IMG/VR virus record: IMGVR_UViG_3300048813_000140
Span: 114,702-175,837 of that record
Direction: 5' to 3' (one strand)
Origin: a virus
Length of the DNA: 61,136 nucleotides
Under the pieces are notes generated by a model. It saw only the letters and a list, made by a program, of their open reading frames with translations. It ran no database searches and was not told the origin of the DNA. The first letter of the stretch is position 1. Each line of letters opens with the position of its first letter. Below, in pieces: positions 6,733 through 41,618 of the stretch. Both the position numbers and the translations under genes were made by a program.

Positions 6733-8583
6733 TTAATCCTCTTCCAACATGTCTTCTATGTCCATCATCAAGAATTGCATCGCGTAGGGCTTGGGAGCCA
6801 ACAAAGCAAAAACTGCCTCTGGACTAGTTTGGGCCAATAACTGAAGGTATTGAATCCAAAATGGATCTCGTTTGTATTGTAATAATGGATCAGAAAAAGC
6901 CGTTACATCATTGAAGAACGTAGACTTGATTTCACCAACATCGTTATATTTATCTAAAAGTAATTGGAAACGTTCGTTGAACGGCATATTGCCGCCCATT
7001 ATACCCAATACTGAATCTTTATCAACTTCCTGCATTACGTCGTTGTAAGACATGGAAACAACCATATCTTGTTGTAGGCGGGTAGTTTCCTGCTCTTTGC
7101 TTTGGCTGTCTAATCCGGCAAGTTTGATCTCACAGACTTTAGCTAGCAAAGGATCTATCAGTGGTAATAGTCTTTGATTGAAGAATGTAGCAAATTTCAA
7201 GACTAAAGGTCGTAGGCCTGTATCGCGAGCTGCGGTAAGTTTGAATTCGTTATTGGATTCAGATAAAGTTTGAGAATTCGTACCTTTGCTCAAATGTCCA
7301 TAACCAGGCAATTCATCAGGGCTCACACCGAAAGCTGACAAGATGTTCCTGGCAATTTGATCATACATAAATTGAAATTCATCGCCTAATCCTTCACCGG
7401 TCATAGGCAACCACGTAACATCATCTTCTGACCCTATACCGAATATCGGGGTCCTGAAGGAGTTACTAACGCTGTTGATAGAAGCGTTAAACTGCAATTT
7501 CATGTTATCTAAGGCTTGTTGGTCAACTTCGTCCGATTTGATGACAAGCATGCCTTTTGTCGCTCTACCGTTTTGGAAATAGAGCTTCTTATAAGCGTCA
7601 ATGCTAATGTGGGTAGTAACGCTAGAAACAACAGTGTCCAAAGGAGAAATAGGATACCCATTATGCTCCACATCAGAAGAAGGGAACAAAGTATATACGA
7701 GCATCTCATCATGCGTGAAAGCTTGTCTTGGAGTACCGTCAATGATTTGAAGCCATGCATATTGGTCTTCTTGTAGTGCTTTAATGTCGATGTTGATTTT
7801 TTCGCCAGTCAAGCTCTCTAAAGCCCTAATAGCTGTAGCACGAAGATTATTTCCTACGTATTCGCCTTTTCTGACTGCCCTAACGATTGTAGCAACGTCT
7901 ACAGGTCTAAATCTATGAAAAGGATAATTACCGTCTTGATCTGGCTCAGCACTTCTATCATAGATGATCTCAGTAGCGAACCTACCAAATGTAAGACCGT
8001 TCCTACACTGAATGTCCATGTACTCAGCTAATGTGAGTTTTTCTTGATTTTCGAGTTCGTCAGTATGTCCGCAGTTAAGGATGATCTTCTCTGCTCTCTT
8101 AATTCTCTCTTTAACTTTATCGAACTGCTCTGGGGTCAAGATCTTATAGAATTCTGGTTTAATTTCAAACTCAATACCGATATCAAATCTATCAGCGCGT
8201 AAATGTCCAAACAGCGACATCATATTGCCACGGGCACGCAAGATGGCAGCTACTAGATGGTCAGTGATCCTGATCTGTTTGAGCACTTCATCAGGTAATG
8301 CTCTGCGTTTGGTTTTATATAAACCAAGGAAATTGTCGGTAGGGGCCGGATTCTCAGTAAACGCTAAAGCTGGAGCCTTTTTACTATTTGCACTTCCACT
8401 AGCCTGATGAATAGCGTACAACAATGGATCGTTTTCAGATTTTGAAAAACCTGCACTATCCATAGTTTCAGCAGCATCTTGGCTTAAAGCAAATACCATC
8501 TTATTCTTGACAGAATTATTGATAGTCTGCGCAGCTAGGACGGCTTCTTGGGCTTTCTGTTCAGCAGATTTTTGATCACTCAT
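6733..8583 (-). CDS. Portal protein
   Basis: The 616-residue product is a portal protein, the dodecameric ring at the capsid vertex through which DNA is packaged. Evidence: the early ITDHLVAAILRARGNM helix, a wing region around EYMDIQCRNGLTFGRFATE, the HDEMLVY...YPISPLDTV stretch, and the stem/clip region with TWLPMTGEGLGDEFQFMYD then ARNILSAFGVSPDELPG. Length and position beside MuF and terminase genes are right. The start is the ATG at 8583, three bases after the HNH gene that splits the head operon at this point. Confidence 0.85.
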   Translation of the reverse strand: MSDQKSAEQKAQEAVLAAQTINNSVKNKMVFALSQDAAETMDSAGFSKSENDPLLYAIHQASGSANSKKAPALAFTENPAPTDNFLGLYKTKRRALPDEVLKQIRITDHLVAAILRARGNMMSLFGHLRADRFDIGIEFEIKPEFYKILTPEQFDKVKERIKRAEKIILNCGHTDELENQEKLTLAEYMDIQCRNGLTFGRFATEIIYDRSAEPDQDGNYPFHRFRPVDVATIVRAVRKGEYVGNNLRATAIRALESLTGEKINIDIKALQEDQYAWLQIIDGTPRQAFTHDEMLVYTLFPSSDVEHNGYPISPLDTVVSSVTTHISIDAYKKLYFQNGRATKGMLVIKSDEVDQQALDNMKLQFNASINSVSNSFRTPIFGIGSEDDVTWLPMTGEGLGDEFQFMYDQIARNILSAFGVSPDELPGYGHLSKGTNSQTLSESNNEFKLTAARDTGLRPLVLKFATFFNQRLLPLIDPLLAKVCEIKLAGLDSQSKEQETTRLQQDMVVSMSYNDVMQEVDKDSVLGIMGGNMPFNERFQLLLDKYNDVGEIKSTFFNDVTAFSDPLLQYKRDPFWIQYLQLLAQTSPEAVFALLAPKPYAMQFLMMDIEDMLEED

Positions 8584-8586
8584 ACG

Positions 8587-9114
8587 TTATACCCTATTAC
8601 CCTTAGAGCTATTTTGCGATTTAGGTAAAATTTGCAAATTCCAGGGAACATGAAGTCCACTTACATTTTCTCCCTGAAGAGGGATTATATGATCAACCGA
8701 TAGCGGATCAGTTGGATCGCTCAACCACTGAAGTTCTTTGGCTAATATATAAAATTCTTTGATTTCTAAAAGCTGTTCTGCTGATATCCATGGCGGCGTT
8801 CGTTTCATTTTAGAGGCGCGACGCTTGGCACTTTTAAAATTGACTTTATCCATATTGTTTTTGCGCCATACATTGTAGGTATTTTTTGTTCTTTCTATGT
8901 TGTTTTTGCGCCACTCTTCCATACGAATACTGACAGAATTTTCGTTTTCGGACACCCACTTAGAATAATTATCTGGATTATTGGATCGCCAAACGGCTAA
9001 ATACTCATTCATACATGATTTACAACGCCTCTGAAGACCATCTTTATTCGACTTCTTTTTGCTGAAATCTTTCAATGACTTGTCTTTCATGCATTTTTTA
9101 CATTTCTTCATCAC
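8587..9114 (-). CDS. Free-standing HNH homing endonuclease
   Basis: A 175-residue protein with two N-terminal CxxC knuckles (CKKC, CKSC), a repetitive WRKNN-rich basic middle that probably contacts DNA, and a C-terminal HNH nuclease: SVDHIIPLQG, then HVPWNLQ and SSKGN. It lies between the portal and the gene at 9130 without splitting either, as expected for an intergenic homing endonuclease. The start is GTG 9112-9114 immediately followed by an in-frame ATG. A TGATATAAG promoter ends at 9120, so the mRNA would be leaderless. Only the target site is unknown. Confidence 0.82.
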   Translation of the reverse strand: MMKKCKKCMKDKSLKDFSKKKSNKDGLQRRCKSCMNEYLAVWRSNNPDNYSKWVSENENSVSIRMEEWRKNNIERTKNTYNVWRKNNMDKVNFKSAKRRASKMKRTPPWISAEQLLEIKEFYILAKELQWLSDPTDPLSVDHIIPLQGENVSGLHVPWNLQILPKSQNSSKGNRV

Positions 9115-9129: not shown

Positions 9130-10113
9130 TTATTCTATTGAAATTAAGAGAACATTTGCTGGGTTTACGCCATTATTGACAACACTCAGTGAATATATGG
9201 TAGATTTCAACATAAATACGCCATTTTGGTTAGCAGGGCACCCATTGGCACAATTCACTAACAAGAAGGGCTCAATATCGCAGGCATTTACGCCGTTGAT
9301 GATTAGGGACACTTTCTGACTCGATTCCACGTAAATCAACTGTTTTGCATCAGAATAGATACTAACTTCTGTCATGATGTTGGTTTCTTGCGGTAGAGAG
9401 CCAGTATAAGAAAACTCTAATGATTCTGCGTACACAGCGGTAATTTTATATGATCCTTGGGTGACCAGAGAAAATCCAGAAGTAATGCTCAGCGTATCGC
9501 CTATCTGAACGCCTGCAGCGCTATAGATCTGTACTTGGGATACAAAACCTGATCCTAAGGTGATAGGACCTTCTCCAGTGCCTGTTGGGTTATTTATAGT
9601 GAAACTGGTGGTCGTCAAGGCTATGATCTGGAAGCTACCTTGATTTAATGGATTGAAAAGATTACCAAGAGTTACCCAATCGCCTACTTGAACACCGCCT
9701 AATGCGAAATTCGTGCCACCGGTTGATGTAAAAGTTACAATTGGGCCATTTTGAGTGACCGTAACCTGGGTCGTAGCGTCAGCGCCTGTCGACCTAGGGG
9801 TTCTGAAGTTTGGTGCGGTACCGCCAGTCCAGGATAGGATATAGGTAGAACTATAAAAAGTCTTTAAAGCTATGGAATATTCAGTAGTTCCATCTTGTGC
9901 TAAGGTCCTAGTTCCGCTAAAAAGGGGCAATGTTTGACCAGGAGCGACCGTAAAAGACTCATCTCCTGCTCCATTGGTGGGAAGACTATTAAGGCTGAAA
10001 TTCCATTTAAATGCAGATTGACTTGGTGCGTTAGATGATTGTCTAGGATTACAATATCCAGCAGATTGAGATCCATACGCGCTTAAAAATACACTCATTG
10101 AAAAATTAGACAT
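9130..10113 (-). CDS. Putative virion structural protein
   Basis: A 327-residue, Ser/Thr/Gly-rich, almost all-beta protein between portal and terminase genes. It has several repeated strand-turn units (GVQVGDWVTLGN and GVQIGDTLSITSG are alike) and ends in Asn/Val-rich strands. I recognise no family. The composition fits a capsid decoration, head fibre or neck protein. A GAGG-like site lies before the ATG at 10113. It is flanked on both sides by HNH genes. Confidence 0.5.
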   Translation of the reverse strand: MSNFSMSVFLSAYGSQSAGYCNPRQSSNAPSQSAFKWNFSLNSLPTNGAGDESFTVAPGQTLPLFSGTRTLAQDGTTEYSIALKTFYSSTYILSWTGGTAPNFRTPRSTGADATTQVTVTQNGPIVTFTSTGGTNFALGGVQVGDWVTLGNLFNPLNQGSFQIIALTTTSFTINNPTGTGEGPITLGSGFVSQVQIYSAAGVQIGDTLSITSGFSLVTQGSYKITAVYAESLEFSYTGSLPQETNIMTEVSIYSDAKQLIYVESSQKVSLIINGVNACDIEPFLLVNCANGCPANQNGVFMLKSTIYSLSVVNNGVNPANVLLISIE

Positions 10114-10142
10114 TAGGCAACCCTCGTTTGATTTGGCTTACC

Positions 10143-10661
10143 TTAAGATTGCTTGTCTAATTTATCACCCTTACTTTGGTTGTCTTTTCTCCATAAAGGC
10201 TGTAGATTGGCGTAATTACAGGCTATTTTGAATTGTTCAGGATCTGAAAGATTAAAACTGGACAACGGAATGATGTGATCTATGTGCCACCCGTGATAGG
10301 AGTAGTTGGACCAATTCATGCCGCGTTGAAATTTAGATTCAATATATTGCTTTAAGAAAGGTATAGAACAGCCTAATTGCTCAACCGCTGATCCTCCTTT
10401 TTGATTTCTTTTTACTGCAGAATTGATTCGCCTTCTTAATGCATGTGCAAGCTTAAAATTGTCATCAGAATTTCTTCTGTTTTTGATGTATTTTGTTTTT
10501 CTAGCTTGTACTTTCTTTTTGTTATTGTTTACATATTTTGTTTCATAATCGTGTTGGCACATTTTACAAACGTTGGCCAGACCATCTTTTTTACATCTAT
10601 TTTTATAGAACAAATCTGTAGTTTTGGATGATTTACAGGTAGTGCATTGTTTCTGAGTCAT
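10143..10661 (-). CDS. Free-standing HNH homing endonuclease
   Basis: A 172-residue protein with N-terminal CTTC and CKMC knuckles, a basic linker, and the HNH core HGWHIDHIIPLSSF followed by CNYANLQPLW and DNQSKGDK. I chose the ATG at 10661 because it overlaps the terminase stop as ATGA, which implies coupled translation. A GTG at 10670 is the alternative. It sits just downstream of the large terminase gene and leaves it intact. It is distinct in sequence from the HNH gene at 8587, so it is probably a separate invasion. Confidence 0.82.
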   Translation of the reverse strand: MTQKQCTTCKSSKTTDLFYKNRCKKDGLANVCKMCQHDYETKYVNNNKKKVQARKTKYIKNRRNSDDNFKLAHALRRRINSAVKRNQKGGSAVEQLGCSIPFLKQYIESKFQRGMNWSNYSYHGWHIDHIIPLSSFNLSDPEQFKIACNYANLQPLWRKDNQSKGDKLDKQS

Positions 10662-12526
10662 ATGTTCCACTTGAATCCACCCTTTTGATGAGTAGTGCTG
10701 CCAGTAACGCTTCCGCCATCATAAACCCTTTTGAAAATCTCTTCTCTCATTTGTTCATTTGTTGTAGGGTTTGGATTATTTTTCTCCTGCAGCTGCGCTT
10801 CGGTCCACGACGTGCTTATTTTTTGATCACCCCTGACGGGAAAAATATTTTGTCCAACATATCGGGCGGCGTCGCATATGTCAGCTATTCCACGCTCATC
10901 ATCGGGCTCCAAAGTAACATTTCCTTGTCCATCAAGCTTGAATCTATGTTTTTGGATAGCAGAGATTACTCTTTTAGTGTTAGGTGTTTCTACTATTTTA
11001 AGCATACGTTTTCCAGATGAGTCTACTATTTTAGATCGTAAACTTTCAATTCCACCCATCACATCTTTGGTGAATTTAGGAGATTTCATACCATTTTTGG
11101 TGAAACTTTTTGTGTGACTAGGCATAGCTTGATCACACCACCATTTTTGAATATTTTTATGTTTTTCTCTATAGGATATAGCGGTATTAAGAACGTCTGA
11201 AAACTCTAATCCTGGAGCCGCCCAACAATCAACTATCCAAACTTCTCCAGTGGGGAAAACTGCGAAAACAATTATAACAGAATCATGAACATAACCCCAG
11301 TCTACGCCAGCATATAGGGGTATGTTGGATTTTTGTAACTCATACAAAAAGTCCATTTCGGATACAAACGATTTAGTTGATGGTGATCCCATCAAAATCT
11401 CATAAGCATCTTTCAAGGACATTACATTCCCTTTTCCGGGAACCGTACTGAATCTGGGATAAACTAGACCTTCACTGCCAGGCTTCCAGCATAGCAGTTG
11501 AGCTTCGGCAGTATCTGGGTCATTCTCTCTGAATTTCTGTATGACAGATACGATTGGCTTATAGAATCCACCAGAGGCAGACTCTGGTTTATCGGCCAAA
11601 CGCTTTCTACAAACTGGCAGTAGTAAGCAGCTTTGGCAGCCCTTATAGACATCTTTAACAAGATCCCACTTAGGATGCTCTGCTGTTGGCAAGAATTCAA
11701 ATTCATCTTTAAATATCTGCTTAAGAGGAAGATTTTTAGCCACATACATGTCTGTTTTTTCTTCTTCAGGCAAATGTCTGGACTTAGGGCATCTTTCTGT
11801 AACGTCAAGGATGTTCCAGCTTAGGATCTTGTAGTGCATCGCAGGTGCTTCATCAATGGCCTTGGACATATTACCGAATGCGTATTTACGAGTAGAGAGG
11901 TATACTTTTATACCGTGAATGCCTTTACTGAATCCAGTAATATTTTTGCCCTCTTTGATTGCGGCGGGATCTGCTAAGTCAAGTTCGTCCAGAAACAGAA
12001 CGTTAGAGTGTAAGCTATTCATCCCTTTGGTTGTACAAATTACAATTTTAATGTAAGGAGTTTTACCCTGAGGAGTCTTGAACTTTGTAAGACGTTTATT
12101 TTTTGTTTTATTTAGCCATCCAGCAACGTCCAATAAGGGCTGAATACTCATGAAAAAGGTATCAATATACCCTAGAGCAACCGATGATTGATCCTCTGTG
12201 GCGGCGGCATGGCCAACCTCTAGCTGAAAGTGCAAGACAAGCAGGACTTCTAATATAGCGACCGATACGGTCTTCATTCCTTCACGACAAGACATCAAGA
12301 TGTAGCCAGGATTTTGGTCACCAGTATTGTGCTTGAAAGTGTTGTAGACTTGATATATACTATCTAAAGGGCTGCTTGTACTGTCTGGATCTGTAATCTC
12401 TAGAGGGAGTTCAAGTCCAAGATACATGCGTACCCAGTCTTTGACTTCCTGTGCGGAAGAAAGAGGGCTAAACATCCACTCGGCATACTTCTTTTGGTCT
12501 TCATACGGCAAAATACTAAAATCCAT
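10658..12526 (-). CDS. Terminase large subunit
   Basis: A 622-residue packaging motor with N-terminal ATPase and C-terminal nuclease domains. The Walker A-like loop is MSCREGMKT, Walker B is VLFLDELDL, and the coupling strand is KVYLSTRK. The RNase H-fold nuclease begins at YAGVDWGYVHD with acidic residues continuing at VDCW and near DICDAARY. A Cys cluster (CQSCLL...CRK) may bind metal. It begins in a TAATG overlap with the small gene upstream. A candidate small subunit is encoded elsewhere, at 19999. Confidence 0.88.
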   Translation of the reverse strand: MDFSILPYEDQKKYAEWMFSPLSSAQEVKDWVRMYLGLELPLEITDPDSTSSPLDSIYQVYNTFKHNTGDQNPGYILMSCREGMKTVSVAILEVLLVLHFQLEVGHAAATEDQSSVALGYIDTFFMSIQPLLDVAGWLNKTKNKRLTKFKTPQGKTPYIKIVICTTKGMNSLHSNVLFLDELDLADPAAIKEGKNITGFSKGIHGIKVYLSTRKYAFGNMSKAIDEAPAMHYKILSWNILDVTERCPKSRHLPEEEKTDMYVAKNLPLKQIFKDEFEFLPTAEHPKWDLVKDVYKGCQSCLLLPVCRKRLADKPESASGGFYKPIVSVIQKFRENDPDTAEAQLLCWKPGSEGLVYPRFSTVPGKGNVMSLKDAYEILMGSPSTKSFVSEMDFLYELQKSNIPLYAGVDWGYVHDSVIIVFAVFPTGEVWIVDCWAAPGLEFSDVLNTAISYREKHKNIQKWWCDQAMPSHTKSFTKNGMKSPKFTKDVMGGIESLRSKIVDSSGKRMLKIVETPNTKRVISAIQKHRFKLDGQGNVTLEPDDERGIADICDAARYVGQNIFPVRGDQKISTSWTEAQLQEKNNPNPTTNEQMREEIFKRVYDGGSVTGSTTHQKGGFKWNI

Positions 12527-12688: not shown

Positions 12689-12958
12689 CTAGCGAGATGA
12701 TATGGTTTCATTTCTAAGTTCTTCCATGAATTTTGCCTTCTCTTCATCCGTAAGATGACGTGTAGAAAATGCTAGATATCCCTTGACAAAGAAATCCTTA
12801 GCTAGCAATCTGTCAGACATACAGTCAAAACGTCTATTGGCGATGATGCCATGCATTTTACTTTCCATGTCTTTGCGTTCCTCAAGTGTCATACTTTCAA
12901 GGACTTGTTCCAATTCTTCATCATTTGGGGCACCGTACCACAATTCAATTGTTTTCAT
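12689..12958 (-). CDS. Hypothetical helical acidic protein
   Basis: An 89-residue protein, helical and acidic, with no recognised domain. Its ATG overlaps the TAA of the chaperonin gene upstream by one base, so it is probably translated with it. It could be a partner or regulator of the chaperonin or a head-assembly factor. That is inferred from position only. Confidence 0.5.
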   Translation of the reverse strand: MKTIELWYGAPNDEELEQVLESMTLEERKDMESKMHGIIANRRFDCMSDRLLAKDFFVKGYLAFSTRHLTDEEKAKFMEELRNETISSR

Positions 12959-14730
12959 TAAGGCCTTTCATTTGCTTCATTTGTGAAGGCTTCTGGGTTA
13001 GCTGCAATTCGTTCGAATTCTGAATCTGCTCTAGCTTCTGATCTCTCAAAAGTATCATCTCTAGGATGTACTACTAATCCGCCCATAGTACCCAAAATAC
13101 TGGCAATACTTACTGCATTGGATAAAGATTCAGTCACGGCCTTGGTAGCGTCGTAAAGTCCCAATTCTTCAGCTGTTCCGAATACTTGGTTCTCAATATC
13201 ATAAACTAGATTTGGATCGCTAACGAGTTTTGTTATGGTATCCTGTTTTTCCTCTTTGTTGTATCCAGCATTATCCAAAAGTCTGAACAAGAGGGACATC
13301 AAGGAAGGGACCAATACGTAATGTGCGGGATCGTCAGTTTTAAGTTCTTCGCTCAGTTTAAGGGCCAAGTCCAGGGCAATACGGGCGCCGCCAGGCAATG
13401 CACCATTGCTAATAGTAGCTCTGACAGCACATACAGCATCTTCACATCTGTCATGAGCTTCTTTAAGTTCGCCGTTTGATCCGCCATAAATGGTGAGTTT
13501 AGCGATACCATTGGTGATCTTTCCAATACGTTCTTGGAGCCAAATCTTCTCTGCTTGGCTTTCACCGTTTTCCATCATTTTCTTTAAATCATCAGCCCTA
13601 ACTTCAACATTTACTGGATCTGGATCGCCGATTACTGTGGTGCGGAAGCGGTATGCTTCAACGCTGGTCATATTACAGCCAAGATCTTGCATTGTAGCAT
13701 TTGCAATTTGATCTTTCATACCAAAAAGCTTAGCTCCGGTAAACGATGATAAATCTTGCAAAAAGTGCAATTGACTATTGGCGAATTGAGCCATAGGAGT
13801 GATCAAAGGCAAAACATTCAAGGTGTTAGGATCTTGGAAATTGTAAGCCAATTGAATAAGGACGTTTTCGCTAAATCCGTGTGAAAAAATTACAAGGTTC
13901 TTATATTGAGCGTCTTTTTCGTGAATGTATTTTTGTCCTAACTCGGCGATCAGAGGCATAACGGCTACTAAGTCATTCATTTGACCGTCAAATAGTAAGA
14001 ATAAAGGCTTTTCCAGATAGCAGCGTTGATTGGCTTGGTCGTTGATAAAGGCAGTGTGCATTTTGCCGATGGAATCTTCATATCCAATGGGAATAGGGAA
14101 ACCATCAATGCGCTCTACTTTATAGTCTTTTTTGCCTGACAATTCTCTGATAGTAACGTGCGAGGCGTCTCCATAACCAATCTCTTCAAAGGCTTTGATA
14201 ACGGCATCGGCCATTTCTTTGTCGCCATTAGCGCTGATGGTAGCGACCATTTTCAGCATGTGTTGGTTGTCAGCGTCGACTTTGATGCTTCTTGATTCTA
14301 TATAAGGTAGAAGAATGGTGTCAACAACTTTGGAAATCCTACGAACAGCCTTTTGAGGACTATGCTTGGGGTTCTTTTCGCAGAAGTCAAATAGGTGCTG
14401 AATAATAGAGTAGCTCAAAACAGTGGCCGTAGTGGTGCCGTCGCCAGCTTCTGTGGCGGTTCGCTGAGCTGCGTCACGAGCTTGCTCTATAATAAGATGT
14501 TTGTAGGGATTATAATGTCCAAGGGATTTGAAGATGGTAACGCCATCTTTTGTATTTTTGCTACCGATACCAGCATAATCAGATTCCACCAGAGTGTTCA
14601 GTCCACCTGGCCCAAGACTTGATCCCACGATTTCAGATACTTCTCTCATGGTGTCTAAAACCATTGCGTTGATCTTTTTTCTGTCCGTAAGATATTGTTT
14701 TGGGGCTGTTTTTGCTTTTCTGTAGCTCAT
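12958..14730 (-). CDS. Phage GroEL-type chaperonin
   Basis: A 590-residue group I chaperonin that folds client proteins inside an ATP-driven ring. The equatorial ATP site is seen as LGPGG (residues 39-43) and GDGTTTAT (96-103, containing the catalytic Asp). The C-terminal equatorial half has SNGALPGGARIALDLAL. It is longer than bacterial GroEL (about 548) and lacks the usual Gly-Gly-Met tail. Phage GroELs are known from a few large phages (for example phage EL), where they may act without a co-chaperonin. It starts with CAGGAGA seven bases upstream and a TGATATAAC promoter. Location beside terminase and portal genes suggests folding of head proteins. Confidence 0.9.
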   Translation of the reverse strand: MSYRKAKTAPKQYLTDRKKINAMVLDTMREVSEIVGSSLGPGGLNTLVESDYAGIGSKNTKDGVTIFKSLGHYNPYKHLIIEQARDAAQRTATEAGDGTTTATVLSYSIIQHLFDFCEKNPKHSPQKAVRRISKVVDTILLPYIESRSIKVDADNQHMLKMVATISANGDKEMADAVIKAFEEIGYGDASHVTIRELSGKKDYKVERIDGFPIPIGYEDSIGKMHTAFINDQANQRCYLEKPLFLLFDGQMNDLVAVMPLIAELGQKYIHEKDAQYKNLVIFSHGFSENVLIQLAYNFQDPNTLNVLPLITPMAQFANSQLHFLQDLSSFTGAKLFGMKDQIANATMQDLGCNMTSVEAYRFRTTVIGDPDPVNVEVRADDLKKMMENGESQAEKIWLQERIGKITNGIAKLTIYGGSNGELKEAHDRCEDAVCAVRATISNGALPGGARIALDLALKLSEELKTDDPAHYVLVPSLMSLLFRLLDNAGYNKEEKQDTITKLVSDPNLVYDIENQVFGTAEELGLYDATKAVTESLSNAVSIASILGTMGGLVVHPRDDTFERSEARADSEFERIAANPEAFTNEANERP

Positions 14731-19127: not shown

Positions 19128-19500
19128 CGTAGAAAACAAAATTAAGGACATGGCCAAATTGGTCGTTGGTTCTAATAGAATCTCTGAAATGCACAAAAAG
19201 AACCTAGAAATGTGGCCCTTAATCATGTTTAATGGGGTACAAAGCGTCACTATAGACTATGATCTGTCCTATAAGCACGACGTAGACGTAGACAACAAGA
19301 ACAATGTTACCCTTAAGGCGCCAATAAGGAATTCGTTCGTGTCCTACCATCTTACTATGGACGAGAATGCTGAAAATCCCAGCATTGACAAGCGTTTTAA
19401 GGCCTTGGAAGATGCTGTTAGGTCGATTTTTTGGAAAGATCTGTCCATAGAAGTCCATATAAATAATAAAATTGTATACAAATCAAGTAAAAAGCTATGA
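19120..19500 (+). CDS. Hypothetical protein
   Basis: A 126-residue alpha/beta protein of unknown function, starting from a TTG that overlaps the gp47-like gene by eight bases with AAGGAG just upstream. It sits between gp47-like and endonuclease VII-like genes, so a recombination role is possible but only inferred. It ends in an ATGA overlap. Confidence 0.5.
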   Translation: MGDVENKIKDMAKLVVGSNRISEMHKKNLEMWPLIMFNGVQSVTIDYDLSYKHDVDVDNKNNVTLKAPIRNSFVSYHLTMDENAENPSIDKRFKALEDAVRSIFWKDLSIEVHINNKIVYKSSKKL

Positions 19501-20012
19501 AACATTGCAATAATTGTAATTCGAATAAGCCAATTAATAAGTTTTACAAGAATAGCGGATCGAAAGATAATCTTGACACATATTGTAAGGAATGCAGACT
19601 TTCTCGCAATAAAATTTGGCGCAAAAACAATCCAGAAAAAGTCAAAAATGTTCAAAAACAATGGAAATCGAAAAATAGAAAAAGGTACAACGAGATCAAT
19701 TTAAAATGGAAAAAAGATAATACACAAAAAGTTATAGAAAGTGGAATAAAATACAGATATGGATTAGATCCTGTGTCTTACCGTAAAATGCTTGAAGATC
19801 AAGGCCATAAATGTATGATTTGTAATAGACATGAATCTGAGCTAAAACAAAGACTAAATATTGATCACAATCACGAAACTGGTGTCGTAAGAGGGTTGCT
19901 ATGTGATATATGCAATAGGGGCCTAGGATTCTTAGGAGCTGATCGTGGGACACATTTACTTAGAGCTGCCATATTATATCTAGAGAAAGACAAAAAAAAT
20001 GGACGAAAGTAA
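19497..20012 (+). CDS. Endonuclease VII-type HNH nuclease
   Basis: A 171-residue protein. The N-terminus has CNNC and CKEC knuckles like the homing HNH proteins of this genome. After a basic WRKNNPEK-type linker comes a recombination endonuclease VII domain: YGLDPVSYRKML, CMICNR, LNIDHNHETG and GLLCDICNRGLG. T4 gp49 uses this fold to cut Holliday junctions and branched DNA before packaging. The knuckle plus linker resembles mobile HNH genes, so it may be a homing enzyme rather than the phage's resolvase; a RuvC-like enzyme is encoded at 25007. Confidence 0.8.
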   Translation: MKHCNNCNSNKPINKFYKNSGSKDNLDTYCKECRLSRNKIWRKNNPEKVKNVQKQWKSKNRKRYNEINLKWKKDNTQKVIESGIKYRYGLDPVSYRKMLEDQGHKCMICNRHESELKQRLNIDHNHETGVVRGLLCDICNRGLGFLGADRGTHLLRAAILYLEKDKKNGRK

Positions 20013-32931: not shown

Positions 32932-35790
32932 ATGGAAACTAATCTAGCTACAAGTCCACACTGTCACGTTGAGAGCCATTTAACCAGTAGCACGCTGGGC
33001 ACCTTCATTGATAAAGCCAAAGCGCTAAAACGTACACACTTCGCATACACCGATAGCGGTGGACTATCATCAGCCCTAAAAGCCTATAGTATGTGCAAAA
33101 AGAAGGGCTTAAAGTTCATTGCAGGCCTGGAATTCTACTTCAAAGATCCGCAATGTCCTTTTGTGTCAGGTACTCCGGCAGACCGTTGTAAATATTTCAC
33201 GGCTTCTATTTATTGCAAAGACCAAGCCGCCTACCAAGCACTCTGCAAATTGGTATCCAAGCCAGATTTCGCCAAAATCCAAATGTACGAAGAGTCACAG
33301 CAGCTGTGGACCTGGAAGGACTTAGAACATATGTCTAAGTTCAATGTAAGCCTGGTACTTAGCGGACCACACTGCATGGTTGGGAAACCTATGCTCGCTG
33401 GTCATGCAGATATAGGACAAAATGTATTCCTAAAATTGAAAGAAATCTTCAAAGAAGACCTATGGGTGGCACTATTGGCTGAGCCCTGGACTAAGAAATG
33501 GTCAAATGTCGTAGAGATCAAGTATACTGACGGCACCAAAGAATCGCTCATGTCAGATACTATACTGGCTACCAATCGATCTCGTAGGATTAAAGCTGCC
33601 GACTTAAGCAAAAAATCTGGTCACACTACCGTGAAGTCCAAAACCGTAGGACTCGCCTATACGGAAATCAACAAAGACATTGATAGCATAAGATCGCACA
33701 GCGGATTCTTACCACTCCCAGGCGGAGACGCCACCCTAAAGGTCAACAAATTCCTAATGGCCTTAGCTAATAAGCATGATAACTTTGTCATGGTCTCAGA
33801 TTACGCGTACTATGCCTCAAAAGACGATAAAATCGTGCAAACGATGAAATTAGAAGGAAATAACAAGCTACAGCCCAATTTGTACATGAAAGATTTTGTG
33901 GAAATGGGCAGGTACCTCGTTGATGTTTTGGGCATTGACGAATTGCAAGCTTCAGTCTATCTGAACAACAATGCTTCCTGGGCTAAGGATTTTGATAACT
34001 TTTCTCTAAAGTACGAGATGAAATTGGTCAATTCTGATGAAGATCCCTATCAAAAGGCTATGGGTTTAATTCGGAAAAATGGACGCATGCAGTGGGATAA
34101 TCCCGTATGGATGGATAGGCTCAAAGAAGAATTCAATGTTTTGGCCAAAAATCCTGTAAAGAACTTCTTGCCATATTTCTTCCCTATTATTGGGGTTAAC
34201 GAGTTCTATAAGAAAAACAATAAGTTGGTGGGTGTTGCCAGGGGATCTGCCGGTGGATCGCTTCTGTGCTACCTCATGGGTGTTACGAATTTAAACCCTA
34301 TGAAGTATAATTTAAGCTTCAGTCGATTCATGTCTTTAGATCGTATCAAGAACGGTGACTGGCCCGACGTGGACTCTGACTATTCTGACAAGACCCTCCT
34401 GTTCGACAAAGACGGCGTGCCAGGCTACTTGAATCAGACTTATGGTGCTGGTATGGCCCAGGTGGGAACAAAGTCAACCATACGCCTTAAAAGCGCAATA
34501 AAAGATACGAACCGATATTTCAATGGATCAGTCGAGCCCGAAATTGAAGTTTTTACAAAAGGTCTGCCCCAACCACCGCAAGGCGTCACAGATGCAAAAT
34601 TCGTGTTTGGTTACGAAGACGACGAGGGAAATCACATCCCAGGTCTGATTGAACAATCCGAGGACTTACAGAAATACATCGAAAAGCGACCAGATGAATG
34701 GGCTATCGTAAGTAAGGCTATGGGGCTCACCAGATCTCAGTCCGTACATGCCTGTGCCGTTCTATTGTCCAGTATTCCTCTCGATGATATCATTCCCCTA
34801 AGAGAAGGTCACATAACGCAGTATGAGGCTAAAGAAACCGAAACTGCGGGACTTATTAAATATGACTTCCTGGGAGTCGATCAAGTCTTGGATATTGAAG
34901 TTTGTTTAAAACTGCTCAATAAAAGAAATGGCGATGATTTTGAAATTGGCTATTTTATGCACAATGGACAAAAATTAAACATTTGGGATCTTCCAGAAGA
35001 TCTAGATGTTCACAAAAGCATTTGGGGCGGCGAAACTGCTACCATATTTCAGCTACATACTCCTACCATGATTCCAGTCGTAAAGGAAATATTACCACAA
35101 TCAGTGGAAGACATATCAACTATTTTAGCCCTGAATCGTCCTGGTCCTATAGATTATATCGATGAAAATACTGGCAGAAACATGGTTCAAGAGTATATTT
35201 GTCGTCGTAAGGGCGAAAGCGAACCAGATTTTCCAGAATTAGCTAAACTTATCCCTGAGACCTATGGCGTAATCGTATTCCAAGAACAGCAGTTGAAAAT
35301 CGCCAAAGAAGTGGGTGGCATGGCTCCCGATCAGGCAGAAAATCTTAGAAGACTGTTTGCAAAGAAGAAAAAAGTTGAAGCTTTAGAAATGAAGCCCATT
35401 TTCATGAAAACTGCAGTCGACAAATTAGGCAAAGAAAAGGCTGAGAAACTTTGGGCCATGATGGAGACATTTGCTAGGTATTCTTTTAACTGCATAGGAG
35501 AAGATCAGAAAATACTAACAAAAACAGGACATTATACGATCAAGGAAATTTCAGACAACCCTCGGCTTTACGATGTCGCATGCATTGACATATGCAATAG
35601 TAATCTTACGTATGAGAAACCGTCTTTTGGGGCTGAAAAGGGTACTAAAGAAGTGTGGACAGTAGAATTAAACGATGGTACTATAATTGAAGCAACTCCA
35701 GACCATAGATTTTGGTCCGAAGGAAGTTGGATAACCTTAAAAGACATAGTAGAACAGGAGTTGCCATTCTGTGTCGTTAAAACAGATTAA
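32932..35790 (+). CDS. dnaE-n: DNA polymerase III alpha, N-part fused to split-intein N-half
   Basis: 952 residues. Residues 1-853 are a family C DNA polymerase: a degenerate PHP-like start (SPHCHVESHL), the palm with GVARGSAGGSLL (~434) and the catalytic PDVDSDYSD (Asp479, Asp481, Asp483), then VHACAVLL and the fingers region up to ETFARYSFN. At Cys854 it switches to an intein N-half (CIGEDQKILT) and stops. The missing C-part is in the gene at 36762, so trans-splicing is required for a whole enzyme of ~1186 residues. The exonuclease just upstream is its likely proofreader. Confidence 0.92.
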   Translation: METNLATSPHCHVESHLTSSTLGTFIDKAKALKRTHFAYTDSGGLSSALKAYSMCKKKGLKFIAGLEFYFKDPQCPFVSGTPADRCKYFTASIYCKDQAAYQALCKLVSKPDFAKIQMYEESQQLWTWKDLEHMSKFNVSLVLSGPHCMVGKPMLAGHADIGQNVFLKLKEIFKEDLWVALLAEPWTKKWSNVVEIKYTDGTKESLMSDTILATNRSRRIKAADLSKKSGHTTVKSKTVGLAYTEINKDIDSIRSHSGFLPLPGGDATLKVNKFLMALANKHDNFVMVSDYAYYASKDDKIVQTMKLEGNNKLQPNLYMKDFVEMGRYLVDVLGIDELQASVYLNNNASWAKDFDNFSLKYEMKLVNSDEDPYQKAMGLIRKNGRMQWDNPVWMDRLKEEFNVLAKNPVKNFLPYFFPIIGVNEFYKKNNKLVGVARGSAGGSLLCYLMGVTNLNPMKYNLSFSRFMSLDRIKNGDWPDVDSDYSDKTLLFDKDGVPGYLNQTYGAGMAQVGTKSTIRLKSAIKDTNRYFNGSVEPEIEVFTKGLPQPPQGVTDAKFVFGYEDDEGNHIPGLIEQSEDLQKYIEKRPDEWAIVSKAMGLTRSQSVHACAVLLSSIPLDDIIPLREGHITQYEAKETETAGLIKYDFLGVDQVLDIEVCLKLLNKRNGDDFEIGYFMHNGQKLNIWDLPEDLDVHKSIWGGETATIFQLHTPTMIPVVKEILPQSVEDISTILALNRPGPIDYIDENTGRNMVQEYICRRKGESEPDFPELAKLIPETYGVIVFQEQQLKIAKEVGGMAPDQAENLRRLFAKKKKVEALEMKPIFMKTAVDKLGKEKAEKLWAMMETFARYSFNCIGEDQKILTKTGHYTIKEISDNPRLYDVACIDICNSNLTYEKPSFGAEKGTKEVWTVELNDGTIIEATPDHRFWSEGSWITLKDIVEQELPFCVVKTD
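35491..35787 (+). other. Split intein, N-half (IntN)
   Basis: Codes for 99 residues from the splicing nucleophile Cys (tgc 35491-35493). Block A is CIGEDQKILTKTG. Block B is DGTIIEATPDHRFW with the conserved Thr and His that activate the N-junction. It ends at a normal stop after CVVKTD. The length fits other split IntN pieces (about 90-120 residues). Confidence 0.9.
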
Positions 35791-36838
35791 GTGTTATTGC
35801 GGAAGATATATAGCTATAAGGGTTCTTAAAAAACACTTAGAATCCAATATTGTGGACCATGATCGATCCTTTGTAGATTGGTGTACACACATAATAAATC
35901 TTATGAGAGTTAATAGATGGGCATGGGAAAAATCTAAAGGGGTAAATGCTATCAGCGATAGATTTTGGGGTTTTAGAGTACTGTCTAAAGAATGTTTAAT
36001 AGAGGATTTCGCATTTGAATCGCCAAGACCTAAAGGCGTTGCCCCAAAACCTCAATATGATAAAATGTCTAAAAATAGACTTGGTGACGGAAATCCTGCA
36101 TTCAAAAATATAGAAATCTACGATATGGAAGAATTGAAAATATTTGCACAACACGAATTCCAAAAATTAGGAAACAATGAGAGACGATTTCGTTTGTTAG
36201 AAAACATACTAAGAGAAAAATTTCCAGATTTTAGATATAATTTCTATGGAAAATTTAGAGAAAACGACGAAACAAGAGGACACAATTCTAGAAATAAAAT
36301 TTTGGCATTTTTATTAGACAAAGACATTTTTTGGATCGTGGATGCTAAAGCCAAGGATCGCGGCAAATTAATAAAAGTAGGTCAAGACAAATCTCCCAAA
36401 AAGCATTTAATTCTAAACGCTGGGAAAAATGTATTAAAAGGACATACCAGCTTGCCACATAAAATATTGTACAATATGGTTAAGTTCTTAGATCCTATGG
36501 CGAAAATAGAAAAACAAATAGATTATAGAGATACATGGAAAAGTTACGATATTTACAGTCCAGAAAAGAATATTTTAATTGAAATGCATGGCCATATGTG
36601 GCACGACACAAATAAATGTAAGAAAAACCTCATACCGTTAGTTTTTAAAAACGTAAAGAATGACGAAATAAAGAAAGAGTTAGCTCTTTTAAATAGTTTT
36701 AGGTACGAAGTATTCTGGGATGATCAAACCGATATGTGGGAAAATAAATTAGAGGAAATATATGGAAGAAAATCAAAAACCTATGAAGAAGCTTTTTGTG
36801 AAGAGAATAATAAAAAAAGAACAAAAAAGGGTATATGA
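35771..36838 (+). CDS. Free-standing EDxHD (Vsr-like) homing endonuclease
   Basis: A 355-residue protein lodged between the two intein halves. It has an N-terminal Cys/His knuckle (CYCGRYIAIRVLKKHL), a middle DNA-binding repeat-like stretch with MSKNRLGDGNPAF, and a C-terminal Vsr-like nuclease: SYDIYSPEKN, ILIEMHGHMWHD, matching the Asp, Glu, His, Asp pattern of EDxHD homing enzymes. It has a GTG start at 35771 with GGAG upstream. It overlaps the end of the first polymerase gene by 20 bases and the start of the second by 77. It would cut intein-less dnaE alleles to spread the element. Confidence 0.82.
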   Translation: MSLKQIKCYCGRYIAIRVLKKHLESNIVDHDRSFVDWCTHIINLMRVNRWAWEKSKGVNAISDRFWGFRVLSKECLIEDFAFESPRPKGVAPKPQYDKMSKNRLGDGNPAFKNIEIYDMEELKIFAQHEFQKLGNNERRFRLLENILREKFPDFRYNFYGKFRENDETRGHNSRNKILAFLLDKDIFWIVDAKAKDRGKLIKVGQDKSPKKHLILNAGKNVLKGHTSLPHKILYNMVKFLDPMAKIEKQIDYRDTWKSYDIYSPEKNILIEMHGHMWHDTNKCKKNLIPLVFKNVKNDEIKKELALLNSFRYEVFWDDQTDMWENKLEEIYGRKSKTYEEAFCEENNKKRTKKGI

Positions 36839-36896
36839 TATAGAAATGCCATCTCATCACAATTTTGTACTTGAAAATGGCGTAGTAGCCCACAAC
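36762..36896 (+). other. Split intein, C-half (IntC)
   Basis: Codes for 45 residues. Block F is RVYDIEMPSHHNFVLEN and block G is GVVAHN, ending in the His-Asn pair that cyclises. The next codon is Cys (tgt 36897-36899), the C-junction nucleophile. The ATG at 36762 has GAGGA six bases upstream; a later ATG at 36783 would give 38 residues. Confidence 0.9.
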
Positions 36897-37898
36897 TGTT
36901 CGCATTCTACAGCTTACGCCATTATCGCATACGCGTCTATGTACCTGAAATATCACTATCCTTTGGATTGGTGGTCGGCAGTACTCACAAATGCTACAGA
37001 ACAAGAAATCACCGGCAAATTCTGGCCATATGTCAAAGATATGGTCACGGCACCCGATATCAACCTATCTTCCGACGTAATGGTTCCAGACCATTTGAAC
37101 AATAAGATCAGATCTAAACTTGGCGTTATTCGTGGCATGGGCGATGCAACTCTTGACCCTATCGTCGCGGGCAGGCCTTACAAAGACATCAGGGATTACG
37201 TCGACAAAGAAGTGGCTGGCGATAGCCTTACCCACAAGCTTATACATGTTGGAGTCCTAGACAGTTTGTTCCCTCCAAGGACCAACCTACTGGAAAAGCT
37301 CAAGATGTACGAAGACGCCGTAGAAGCCAAAGCATTTGCGGATAAGTCCAAGAAAGCCAAAGCTGAAGGTAGGAAAATCAGAGCCTTGCAACCAAAACCA
37401 GGCAAGATTCCAGAAGAGTACATTGGATTAGAAAAGACTCCTATGAAAGAAGCTGCTATGAAAAAGGCAGTTCTTCCCAGCTTACCCATCGACTTGCATG
37501 CTCTTGGTAAGAGTCATTCCAGAGTCCTTGATACAAGTATGGATCTTCCGATGGTTCTGAATAGTAAAAATTACAAAAGTCTTCTGGTGAGCGGCGATAA
37601 GCTAAAAAGAATTGACGAGTTGGACGGCGATAGCCTTAATAAGGATCTATACATTGCGTCAACCTGCTTCATCGTAAAAGCTGAAGAGTTCTCATTTCAA
37701 AATGGCACCAAACGCGCATTGAAGCTGATATTGGACGTTGATGGCTACGTATCTGAAAAGGTTAAATGGCCTAGCTACGATTCTGGCGAACTCGAATACC
37801 CTAAGGAACTCAAACGTGGGGTTATTGCAACAATTTTTTTCAAGAAACGTGTGGGCAAAAAGGACGTTTCTATGACCGATATTTTTGTAGAGTCTTGA
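36762..37898 (+). CDS. dnaE-c: Split-intein C-half fused to DNA polymerase III alpha C-part
   Basis: 378 residues. The first 45 are the intein C-half. From Cys46 the polymerase resumes with CSHSTAYAIIAYASMYLKYHYP, the invariant SHSxAYA block of family C polymerases, then the helix-hairpin-helix region (LGVIRGMGDATLDPI) and an OB-fold-like segment (KDLYIASTCFIVK...FSFQNGTK). The product has no catalytic Asp of its own, so it needs ligation to the N-part. Translation starts inside the homing endonuclease gene. Confidence 0.92.
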   Translation: MEENQKPMKKLFVKRIIKKEQKRVYDIEMPSHHNFVLENGVVAHNCSHSTAYAIIAYASMYLKYHYPLDWWSAVLTNATEQEITGKFWPYVKDMVTAPDINLSSDVMVPDHLNNKIRSKLGVIRGMGDATLDPIVAGRPYKDIRDYVDKEVAGDSLTHKLIHVGVLDSLFPPRTNLLEKLKMYEDAVEAKAFADKSKKAKAEGRKIRALQPKPGKIPEEYIGLEKTPMKEAAMKKAVLPSLPIDLHALGKSHSRVLDTSMDLPMVLNSKNYKSLLVSGDKLKRIDELDGDSLNKDLYIASTCFIVKAEEFSFQNGTKRALKLILDVDGYVSEKVKWPSYDSGELEYPKELKRGVIATIFFKKRVGKKDVSMTDIFVES

Positions 37899-37929: not shown

Positions 37930-38736
37930 ATGAAGATCTTTATAGGTGTTGCCATAGTTCAAATCATTATAATTGCGTGGGTAGGGATTATTATTTCTGG
38001 GTGTACGGAACCTGAAGTCATTCCAAAATCATTCCACAAGCCAAAGATGGTGCAGAAATGTAATAAAAGACCTCTTGTAGTAGCTATCATAGATACTGGA
38101 TTTGGATATAGGGGACTTGGCAAAGAAGCTCATCTTTGTAAATTTGGGCACAAGGATTTTTCACTATTTCCAAACACTACCACGGAATACGATACCAAAG
38201 ATCCAGTACCTCTGGATACACATGGTCATGGTACCAACGTAGCCGGAATTATTGATTATTACGGACAACAAACCGATACAAACTTCTGTATGGTGATTTT
38301 AAAGTATTACGATCCAAAATCTGCTGGAGTGGACAATATGGCCGCCAGCGTTTCTGCCATAAGATATGCCAAAAATATCGATGCAGATTTCATAAATTAT
38401 AGTGGCGGTGGACTATATAGGTCCGAAGACGAAGCTGAGGCAGTAACGGCATTCATAGACAATGGCGGTATTTTTGTGGCCGCTGCTGGAAATGAATATT
38501 CTAACATCGATAAGCACCCATACTATCCAGCCATGGCAGATCTTAGAACCTTTATCATTGGTGGAACATACCCTAGCGGCGAACATATGAAGACGTCTAA
38601 CTACGGGGAATCAATTACAAAATGGGAAATTGGATCTGATGTAATTGGATTTGGAATTAGAATGACTGGAACTAGTCAGGCCACCGCAACTGCCACAGGC
38701 AAACTTGTCGCTAGAATAAAGAACGATTGTAATTAA
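37930..38736 (+). CDS. Subtilisin-like serine protease lipoprotein
   Basis: A 268-residue protein with a hydrophobic signal helix and lipobox IIS-Gly-Cys at ~24, then a compact subtilase domain: Asp55 in AIIDTGFG, His98 in DTHGHGTNVAG, oxyanion region with AAAGNE, Ser249 in TGTSQATATATG. No propeptide domain is evident. It would be anchored at the cell surface or periplasm. A consensus promoter with no leader implies strong expression of its own. Roles in excluding rival phages or in lysis are inferences. Confidence 0.85.
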   Translation: MKIFIGVAIVQIIIIAWVGIIISGCTEPEVIPKSFHKPKMVQKCNKRPLVVAIIDTGFGYRGLGKEAHLCKFGHKDFSLFPNTTTEYDTKDPVPLDTHGHGTNVAGIIDYYGQQTDTNFCMVILKYYDPKSAGVDNMAASVSAIRYAKNIDADFINYSGGGLYRSEDEAEAVTAFIDNGGIFVAAAGNEYSNIDKHPYYPAMADLRTFIIGGTYPSGEHMKTSNYGESITKWEIGSDVIGFGIRMTGTSQATATATGKLVARIKNDCN

Positions 38737-40692: not shown

Positions 40693-41232
40693 GTGAGCGA
40701 TCAAGACGCCACTGCTCAGTCTGATAATCATAAGCTGGTCCTTACCTCGTTTGGTAAGGTTCCAGCCCTTTCTTTAGACATGAGTAAGATTCGAGAAGCT
40801 GAAAGTAGGATAATTGAGGCCAAAATGGTCAATCCTGCTACTTATGCAGACCTTGAGTCGGCATTTAATGAAGCGTACCGCGACCTTAAAAGGCACTTAA
40901 GTTCTATAGGATTTGCCCTTAACCAGGCAGAGAAGACTTTAGAAGAAACCAAATCAGATATTATTTTAGATAGATATCCTAAATTTTTAGAAGAAAAAGC
41001 TATCAAGAAGACCCAAGACAATGCGGACCTCCGCAAGGCCTTTATGGCTAGAGATCCTGAGTATTCGGCAGCCCTAGACAGACTGAATCAGCTTAAGGCC
41101 TTAGAGTCCAACTTTGATGGCAAGATAAAAGTACTAGAGAACACCTGTAGATACATGCGTAAGAAAATGGACTTACTACTGAGAAGCGGTATGTCTGGAG
41201 CTGACTATCACGTAACGTCGGGGAGAAAGTAA
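40693..41232 (+). CDS. Hypothetical coiled-coil protein
   Basis: A 179-residue helical protein with two long coiled-coil stretches (~35-95 and ~110-160), placed between SSB and recombinase genes. It may be a mediator that loads the recombinase, inferred from neighbours only. It has a GTG start with AAAGGAG upstream. Its stop overlaps the next ATG (TAATG). Confidence 0.5.
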   Translation: MSDQDATAQSDNHKLVLTSFGKVPALSLDMSKIREAESRIIEAKMVNPATYADLESAFNEAYRDLKRHLSSIGFALNQAEKTLEETKSDIILDRYPKFLEEKAIKKTQDNADLRKAFMARDPEYSAALDRLNQLKALESNFDGKIKVLENTCRYMRKKMDLLLRSGMSGADYHVTSGRK

Positions 41233-41618
41233 TGGCCAATAAAGAGATATTTTACAAAGGTCAGATGTTTACCGTAGCTATCGTAGACGATGAAGACCAA
41301 GATATTTTGAATAAGTCATGGTTCATAAACACAAGAACCAAACGAATGCCATCTGAATACTTCCAGTTAAGACGCAATCTAGGGATTCTAGAGAAGGCAC
41401 ATTACGGCAAAGCAAAGATCTATATGCATCATGAGATATGGATCAAACATTTTGGCTTCTTTGCGGAAGGTATGACGGTAGACCACATAGATTTCGATAC
41501 CGCAAATAATAAAAAAAGTAATTTAAGACTTATGACCAACGAAGAAAATCGCGTTAGACATCAAAAACAAGGAGAAGAAAATGCCCAACAAGTGGACCAA
41601 ACAGCTACGGGGATATGA
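41232..41618 (+). CDS. HNH homing endonuclease, small
   Basis: A 128-residue HNH protein: IYMHHEIWIKHFG, MTVDHIDFDTANNKKSNLRL and MTNEENRVRH, the pattern of small AP2/HNH homing enzymes. There is no Cys knuckle, unlike the other HNH genes here, so it is a different lineage. Its 3' end overlaps the UvsX-like gene start by 38 bases and supplies that gene's AAGGAGAAG ribosome-binding site. Confidence 0.75.
   Translation: MANKEIFYKGQMFTVAIVDDEDQDILNKSWFINTRTKRMPSEYFQLRRNLGILEKAHYGKAKIYMHHEIWIKHFGFFAEGMTVDHIDFDTANNKKSNLRLMTNEENRVRHQKQGEENAQQVDQTATGI

Follow-up and report, generated by a model that had tools for sequence, protein, structure and literature searches.

A three-gene locus for DNA polymerase III alpha

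The stretch of DNA analysed here (hereafter the window, 61,136 nucleotides) spans positions 114702-175837 of a 175,837-base IMG/VR virus record (IMGVR_UViG_3300048813_000140), whose source is an uncultured virus of bacteria. At 32932-37898 on its plus strand, three overlapping open reading frames (ORFs) encode, in order, the N-terminal part of a DNA polymerase III alpha subunit (Pol III alpha, or DnaE) ending in half an intein, a putative homing endonuclease (HEN), and the other half of the intein followed by the remainder of the polymerase. I interpret this locus as a mobile fractured-gene element in a replicative polymerase, made of a split class 1 intein and a Vsr-like HEN and predicted to act by protein trans-splicing, a reading to which I would give a probability of about 0.9 from sequence analysis.

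The first ORF (N-piece, 32932-35790, 952 residues) comprises 853 residues of Pol III alpha (the N-extein, 32932..35490), covering the PHP domain, the palm and most of the fingers, followed by the 99-residue N-terminal half of the intein (IntN, 35491..35787). The N-extein matches Pfam PF02811, PF07733 and PF17657 and NCBIfam TIGR00594, has its palm motif PDVDSD at 34363, and is 54% identical to the intact orthologue L008. IntN starts with Cys1 (codon 35491-35493), has TPDH as block B, with Thr69 (codon 35695) and His72 (codon 35704), and ends at a stop codon at 35788-35790. The third ORF (C-piece, 36762-37898, 378 residues) opens with the 45-residue C-terminal half (IntC, 36762..36896), which would be 38 residues long if the alternative ATG at 36783 were the start; its block F is VYDIEMPSHHNF and its block G is VVAHN, with the His-Asn ending at 36896. 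The C-extein (36897..37895, 333 residues, PF14579) consists of Cys+1 (codon 36897-36899) and 332 residues after it, namely the end of the fingers, a helix-hairpin-helix and the C-terminal part, and is closed by the stop codon at 37896-37898.

A preliminary description of this locus had placed an intein N-half, with its Cys at 35491, at the end of the first polymerase gene and a C-half at the start of the third, and had proposed a profile search with both. The coordinates agree, and both halves exceed the curated NCBIfam cut-offs: intein_Nterm (TIGR01445) scores 28.8 bits on IntN (cut-off 24.5) and intein_Cterm (TIGR01443) 29.1 bits on IntC (cut-off 15.6). Pfam PF14890 reports both halves as well, under its whole-domain cut-off, as expected because the intein domain is split. 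Alignment of the extein halves to intein-free orthologues further bears out that the C-extein resumes exactly where the N-extein ends, in the fingers region of the polymerase (...RYSFN|C-SHSTAY...), and the predicted spliced product of 853+333 = 1186 residues compares well with the 1183-residue intact ORF in L008. The insert is low in GC (IntN 0.384, HEN 0.315 and IntC 0.311, versus 0.43-0.44 for the exteins). A promoter and terminator scan across the element gave no signal over chance level.

The endonuclease gene does lie between the intein halves, as had been described: it is a free-standing ORF of 355 residues with a GTG start (35771..36838), whose ends overlap those of the N-piece (20 bp) and the C-piece (77 bp). 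N-piece, HEN and C-piece occupy frames +0, +1 and +2. A stop codon lies in frame 18 nt upstream of the HEN GTG, and another 9 nt upstream of the C-piece ATG, so that neither frame is open ahead of its start. Both starts are preceded by a Shine-Dalgarno-like site, AGGAG at 35756..35760, within the IntN coding sequence and 10 nt before the GTG, and AGAGGA at 36751..36756, within the HEN ORF and 5 nt before the C-piece ATG. These features make it impossible that one lost stop, by sequencing error, accounts for the break, an artefact named beforehand as one way the description could fail; the same layout in a relative (L033) and independent contigs likewise rule out an error or a simple stop.

The HEN carries an N-terminal C-x-C...H motif and a nuclease domain at about residues 226-336. 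Pfam gave no match for the HEN alone, but a profile built from it and 7 homologues retrieves I-Bth0305I (3R3P, E 5.5e-6) and then Vsr (1CW0, 0.19). Its structural model is of low confidence (predicted local distance difference test, pLDDT, 45), with Vsr 1CW0 as the best Foldseek match (probability 1.00). In the homologue alignment, the catalytic-core residues Asp260, Glu271, His278, Asp298 and Lys301 (36548..36673) are invariant in 6 homologues, and also in the L033 copy. The earlier assignment to the EDxHD endonucleases stands as far as the profile, which places the HEN in the EDxHD/Vsr group, and three hallmark residues are concerned, namely the strand Asp (Asp260), the His of the W-H motif (His278) and the distal Asp (Asp298). 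However, the first-helix Glu, present in most homologues, is replaced by His230 in both copies (SLPHKIL and SLHHRIL), and the HEN is classed from these residues as EDxHD/Vsr-like rather than as a proven EDxHD enzyme. Like I-Bth0305I and the EDxHD enzymes, it has a Vsr-like nuclease domain behind DNA-binding modules; unlike I-Bth0305I, which resides in a group I intron, it has His230 for Glu, a motif IEMHGHxWH, and a position as a free-standing ORF between intein halves.

Several other genes of the window were annotated by eye. Four further small HNH-type ORFs (8587-9114, 10143-10670, 19497-20012 and 41232-41618) adjoin structural and replication genes, so that the genome appears rich in homing-type nucleases. 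A secreted-looking subtilisin-like serine protease gene (37930-38736) directly follows the polymerase and is found at the same place in relatives (L008:9593-10399, L024:12100-12897, L026:12313-13086 and L027:12877-13620). A GroEL-type chaperonin-like ORF (12958-14730) lies near the terminase and portal genes.

Relatives, empty sites and loss of the endonuclease

Relatives were gathered with an alignment of the window polymerase and the intact L008, from a contig of a Saprospiraceae metagenome-assembled genome. This retrieved 17 IMG/VR polymerases with 43-58% identity, and a query across the C-piece junction added more. The same split intein is present at the same codon in five loci, namely the window, L024 (= L034), L033, L035 and L036, the other four carriers being separate IMG/VR contigs from other metagenomes. 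Initial single-protein scans and the DNA pattern HNC-S(TCN)-H had found no relatives, probably because exact patterns were too narrow; a further HEN scan recovered only the L033 contig again, the L033 HEN had no match in INPHARED, and the IntN and IntC searches found no isolate phage with this DnaE intein.

The five carriers differ in what lies between the intein halves. L033 has the same overlapping layout as the window, with a 358-residue HEN that is 46% identical. In L036, an 85-residue remnant (7756-8013) retains both the zinc-finger-like beginning of the HEN and its end, but the nuclease core is gone. The remnant overlaps both neighbouring ORFs, and because this overlap persists, it may have been retained as a translational-coupling leader. 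L024 has no HEN ORF, only an 81-nt spacer, and several stops interrupt the reading frame from IntN to IntC; over 66 nt the end of the spacer shares 91% identity with the HEN end and IntC start of L033. L035 has a spacer only, with fragments that resemble, by eye, both HEN ends. This series indicates that the HEN decays by deletion and the split intein persists, and the HEN is thus dispensable for keeping the split intein, since relatives that lost it stay split.

Beside this series stand empty sites, as 19 intein-free loci align without gaps across the insertion site. Cys occupies position +1 in all five intein alleles (5/5) but in none of the intein-free ones (0/19), which carry Lys, Ile, Val, Leu, Arg or Ala there. 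In the extein tree, the sister of the window is the intein-free L016 (support 97/92) and that of L033 is L026, which lacks the split intein (support 99/93); the carriers are scattered, and intein presence needs five changes. For the four well-placed carriers (window, L024, L033 and L036), grouping as one extein clade is rejected by the approximately unbiased test (p-AU 1.1e-61). Between L035 and the other carriers, identity is 25-33% for the exteins, 41-48% for IntN and 56-65% for IntC, the intein being closer than the exteins, as would be expected if the intein had been transferred on its own. In the comparison of L024 with L033, synonymous sites of the exteins are near saturation (proportion of synonymous differences, pS, 0.75 and 0.71), with synonymous distances (dS) of 0.79 for IntN and 0.21 for IntC. 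The ratio of nonsynonymous to synonymous rates (dN/dS) for this pair, from few sites, is 0.07 for IntN and 0.05 for IntC, which argues that the intein is under purifying selection.

Predicted trans-splicing and its alternatives

Class 1 inteins splice with Cys1, the block B Thr and His, block F and a His-Asn-Cys junction. Cys1, Thr69 and His72 of block B, block F, the His-Asn and Cys+1 are kept in all five phages. In all five carriers, IntN is acidic (net charge -8 to -11) and IntC basic (+3 to +9), unlike in the contiguous control inteins; this matches the charge segregation between the halves of natural split inteins (PMC11923092). An AlphaFold2 model of the IntN half alone (pLDDT 77) has inteins only as its top Foldseek matches, the best being Npu DnaE (E 1.2e-5, probability 1.00, template modelling score only about 0.4). 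The IntN model also matches the central domain of T4 topoisomerase II (8yo3). The 175.8-kb record encodes one DnaE, with all catalytic residues kept; no PolA or PolB was found in the record, which may be incomplete. Taken together, the set of splicing residues, the charge split, the fold matches of IntN and the single polymerase make trans-splicing the best explanation. Dependence of the replicase on splicing appears well supported, because the catalytic residues are kept, the intein is under purifying selection, and DnaE is the sole polymerase found.

Under this model, the overlapping ORFs would be translated separately into two precursors with computed masses of 107.7 kDa (Pol-N-IntN) and 42.8 kDa (IntC-Pol-C), whose oppositely charged intein halves would associate and fold into a HINT domain. 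As the residue conservation suggests, Cys1 and Cys+1 would then mediate an acyl shift and transthioesterification, and the Asn would cyclise, releasing the 1186-residue polymerase (133.9 kDa, computed). The HEN would cut intein-free alleles in co-infecting phages, with recombination copying the element in. After such spread the HEN is lost by deletion, as the relatives show, with the split intein retained because the replicase would need it.

Three observations weigh against parts of this interpretation. HEN activity is uncertain, because the first-helix Glu is missing, with His230 in its place. The extein data do not reject L024 and L033 as a sister pair (p-AU 0.19), so the intein of these two could be shared by vertical inheritance. 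The IntC dN/dS value is based on 5 changes.

One alternative is that the intein-derived halves are docking tails that join two polymerase subunits and do not splice, as for the Aeromonas phage Aeh1 NrdA, whose gene, split by mobE, retains full function with no intron present (PMC2988022, PMC3653736). Within the present set, two loci lend it some plausibility: in L007, Pol III alpha is broken around an HNH gene and bears tails without splicing blocks, and the tails of Tenacibaculum phage Larrie are similar. In the window family, however, all splicing residues are kept in five diverged copies, unlike in L007 and Larrie, and Cys+1 is confined to the intein alleles; docking alone would not select splicing residues, and I consider it improbable here. 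Another possibility, one unbroken intein that contains the endonuclease and is translated by way of two programmed +1 frameshifts (IntN to HEN and HEN to IntC), would account for each successive ORF being shifted by +1, for the overlaps of 20 and 77 bp, and for the A-rich runs in the second overlap. It is still less probable, since both downstream ORFs have their own start and Shine-Dalgarno-like site, several in-frame stops separate IntN from IntC in L024, which has no HEN ORF, and L036 maintains separate starts around a remnant that is no longer a nuclease; I reject it on the strength of the own starts and the HEN-free relatives. That the locus is an assembly error or a dead pseudogene, a natural concern for a metagenomic contig of an uncultured phage, is the least likely of all, given the element at the same codon in the four other contigs, the intein dN/dS well under 1, and the failure to find a further polymerase in the record. 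The fractured-gene layout proposed at the outset is therefore retained, since the sequence, the profile matches, the comparison of folds and the four other carriers, which are independent, all point to it.

Other breaks and insertions were seen in this polymerase gene. L027:7992-12845 (IMGVR 3300050011_000416) has a second split intein at another polymerase site (SRHA|C...HN|CAFVIAD), with a 363-residue HNH-like endonuclease ORF between the halves and reversed charges (IntN +6, IntC -6). L026:7962-12299 (IMGVR 3300002920_000061), closely related to L024 and L033 but lacking the split intein, carries a contiguous intein elsewhere in the gene, at a third position (YGVQ|C...HN|CFQEQ). In L007:2938-7464 (IMGVR 3300034128_000030) and L044:1940-5520 (Larrie), Pol III alpha is encoded by two genes, broken beside the catalytic PDIDxD motif, with short intein-like tails lacking splicing ends and, in L007, the HNH gene between them; by analogy with Aeh1 NrdA, these are probably non-splicing docking tails. 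Inspection of phiT1 and Jayan, whose polymerases are likewise two-gene, showed that these are not the window element. L025 has a cysteine-rich, zinc-ribbon-like polymerase insertion of about 68 residues (about 10017-10220) and no intein. Within one phage group (L007, L026, L027), this polymerase gene has evidently been interrupted or invaded at several different positions.

Comparison with known inteins and fractured genes

Closeness to known inteins was assessed over PDB and NCBIfam. With a profile of the five IntN sequences, the fourteen best-scoring PDB sequences are without exception DnaE inteins (56-43 bits), ahead of DnaB (35), NrdJ-1 (22.5) and gp41-1 (16); the IntC profile gives 36-28 bits for DnaE inteins (one at 22.8) and at most 24.5 for others. 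In NCBIfam, most halves rank the cyanobacterial split dnaE models highest of all models for intein-containing proteins. As controls, a Rhodococcus phage DnaE intein is closest to VidaL/RecA, the L026 intein finds gp41-1, and that of L027 finds DnaE, barely ahead of DnaB. An intein tree, weak beyond the five-member family, carries no weight in this comparison.

With the cyanobacterial DnaE split inteins (Npu, Ssp), the phage intein shares the DnaE gene, Cys1, Cys+1 and the opposite charges; among inteins of solved structure, these are the closest to both halves. The split position is close (99+45 residues, versus about 102+36), but the insertion site FN|C lies three residues downstream of the cyanobacterial Y|CFN (Y|CFNKSHS), and the phage halves are adjacent with a HEN between them, whereas the cyanobacterial halves are at distant loci without an endonuclease. 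Block G of the cyanobacterial intein is Ser-Asn, compared to His-Asn in the phage IntC. Given the displaced site, the phage intein is not a member of the cyanobacterial DnaE intein family, yet it is likely a relative. No endonuclease-bearing relatives of the cyanobacterial DnaE split inteins were found described in the literature searched. Tentatively, the phage family may be a surviving HEN-bearing relative of the cyanobacterial split intein, possibly its reservoir or ancestral arrangement: the N-piece/endonuclease/C-piece split would be phage-born, followed by endonuclease decay and later separation in cyanobacteria, a scenario I regard as rather doubtful.

A single codon thus holds this split intein with a complete HEN (window, L033), an 85-residue remnant (L036) and scars (L024, L035). 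This decay series, beside empty alleles in sister phages, bears on the origins of split inteins, and it shows the split persisting after the endonuclease is gone. Protein engineering makes routine use of split inteins. Both halves of the phage intein are similar to the cyanobacterial DnaE ones, which are in wide use. The five pairs are candidates for new splicing reagents. The predicted tryptic peptide spanning the splice junction, YSFNCSHSTAYAIIAYASMYLK, can be searched for in metaproteomes.

Phage DnaE inteins adjoining the same site occur in the Rhodococcus phages Francesca and Trina (L004, L005). Unlike the window intein, these are contiguous, and they lie one residue downstream (FNK|C...HN|SHS); counting the cyanobacterial position as well, DnaE has three intein sites within about four residues. 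The Aes123 PolB1 intein of T4-like Aeromonas phages (IntN 120 residues, IntC 39 residues) is also a natural split intein in a phage replicative polymerase, but the enzyme is of PolB type and the intein is cysteine-less (PMC11923092).

The fractured-gene arrangement is already known, and the locus in the window is a further case. What is added is a DnaE case, a HEN decay series, empty sites, the link to the cyanobacterial DnaE inteins, and the finding that one phage group has this gene interrupted or invaded at several positions. Dassa et al. in 2009 (NAR 37:2560) reportedly described such genes as broken by a split intein, between whose halves lies an independent gene for a Vsr-related endonuclease. 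Later papers that cite this work relay the fractured genes (PMC12350094, PMC3653736). The locus has in common with them a broken DNA-metabolism gene, a split intein, a Vsr-related endonuclease and a phage or metagenomic source; it differs in that the target is a phage Pol III alpha, and in that one site is traced through five phages.

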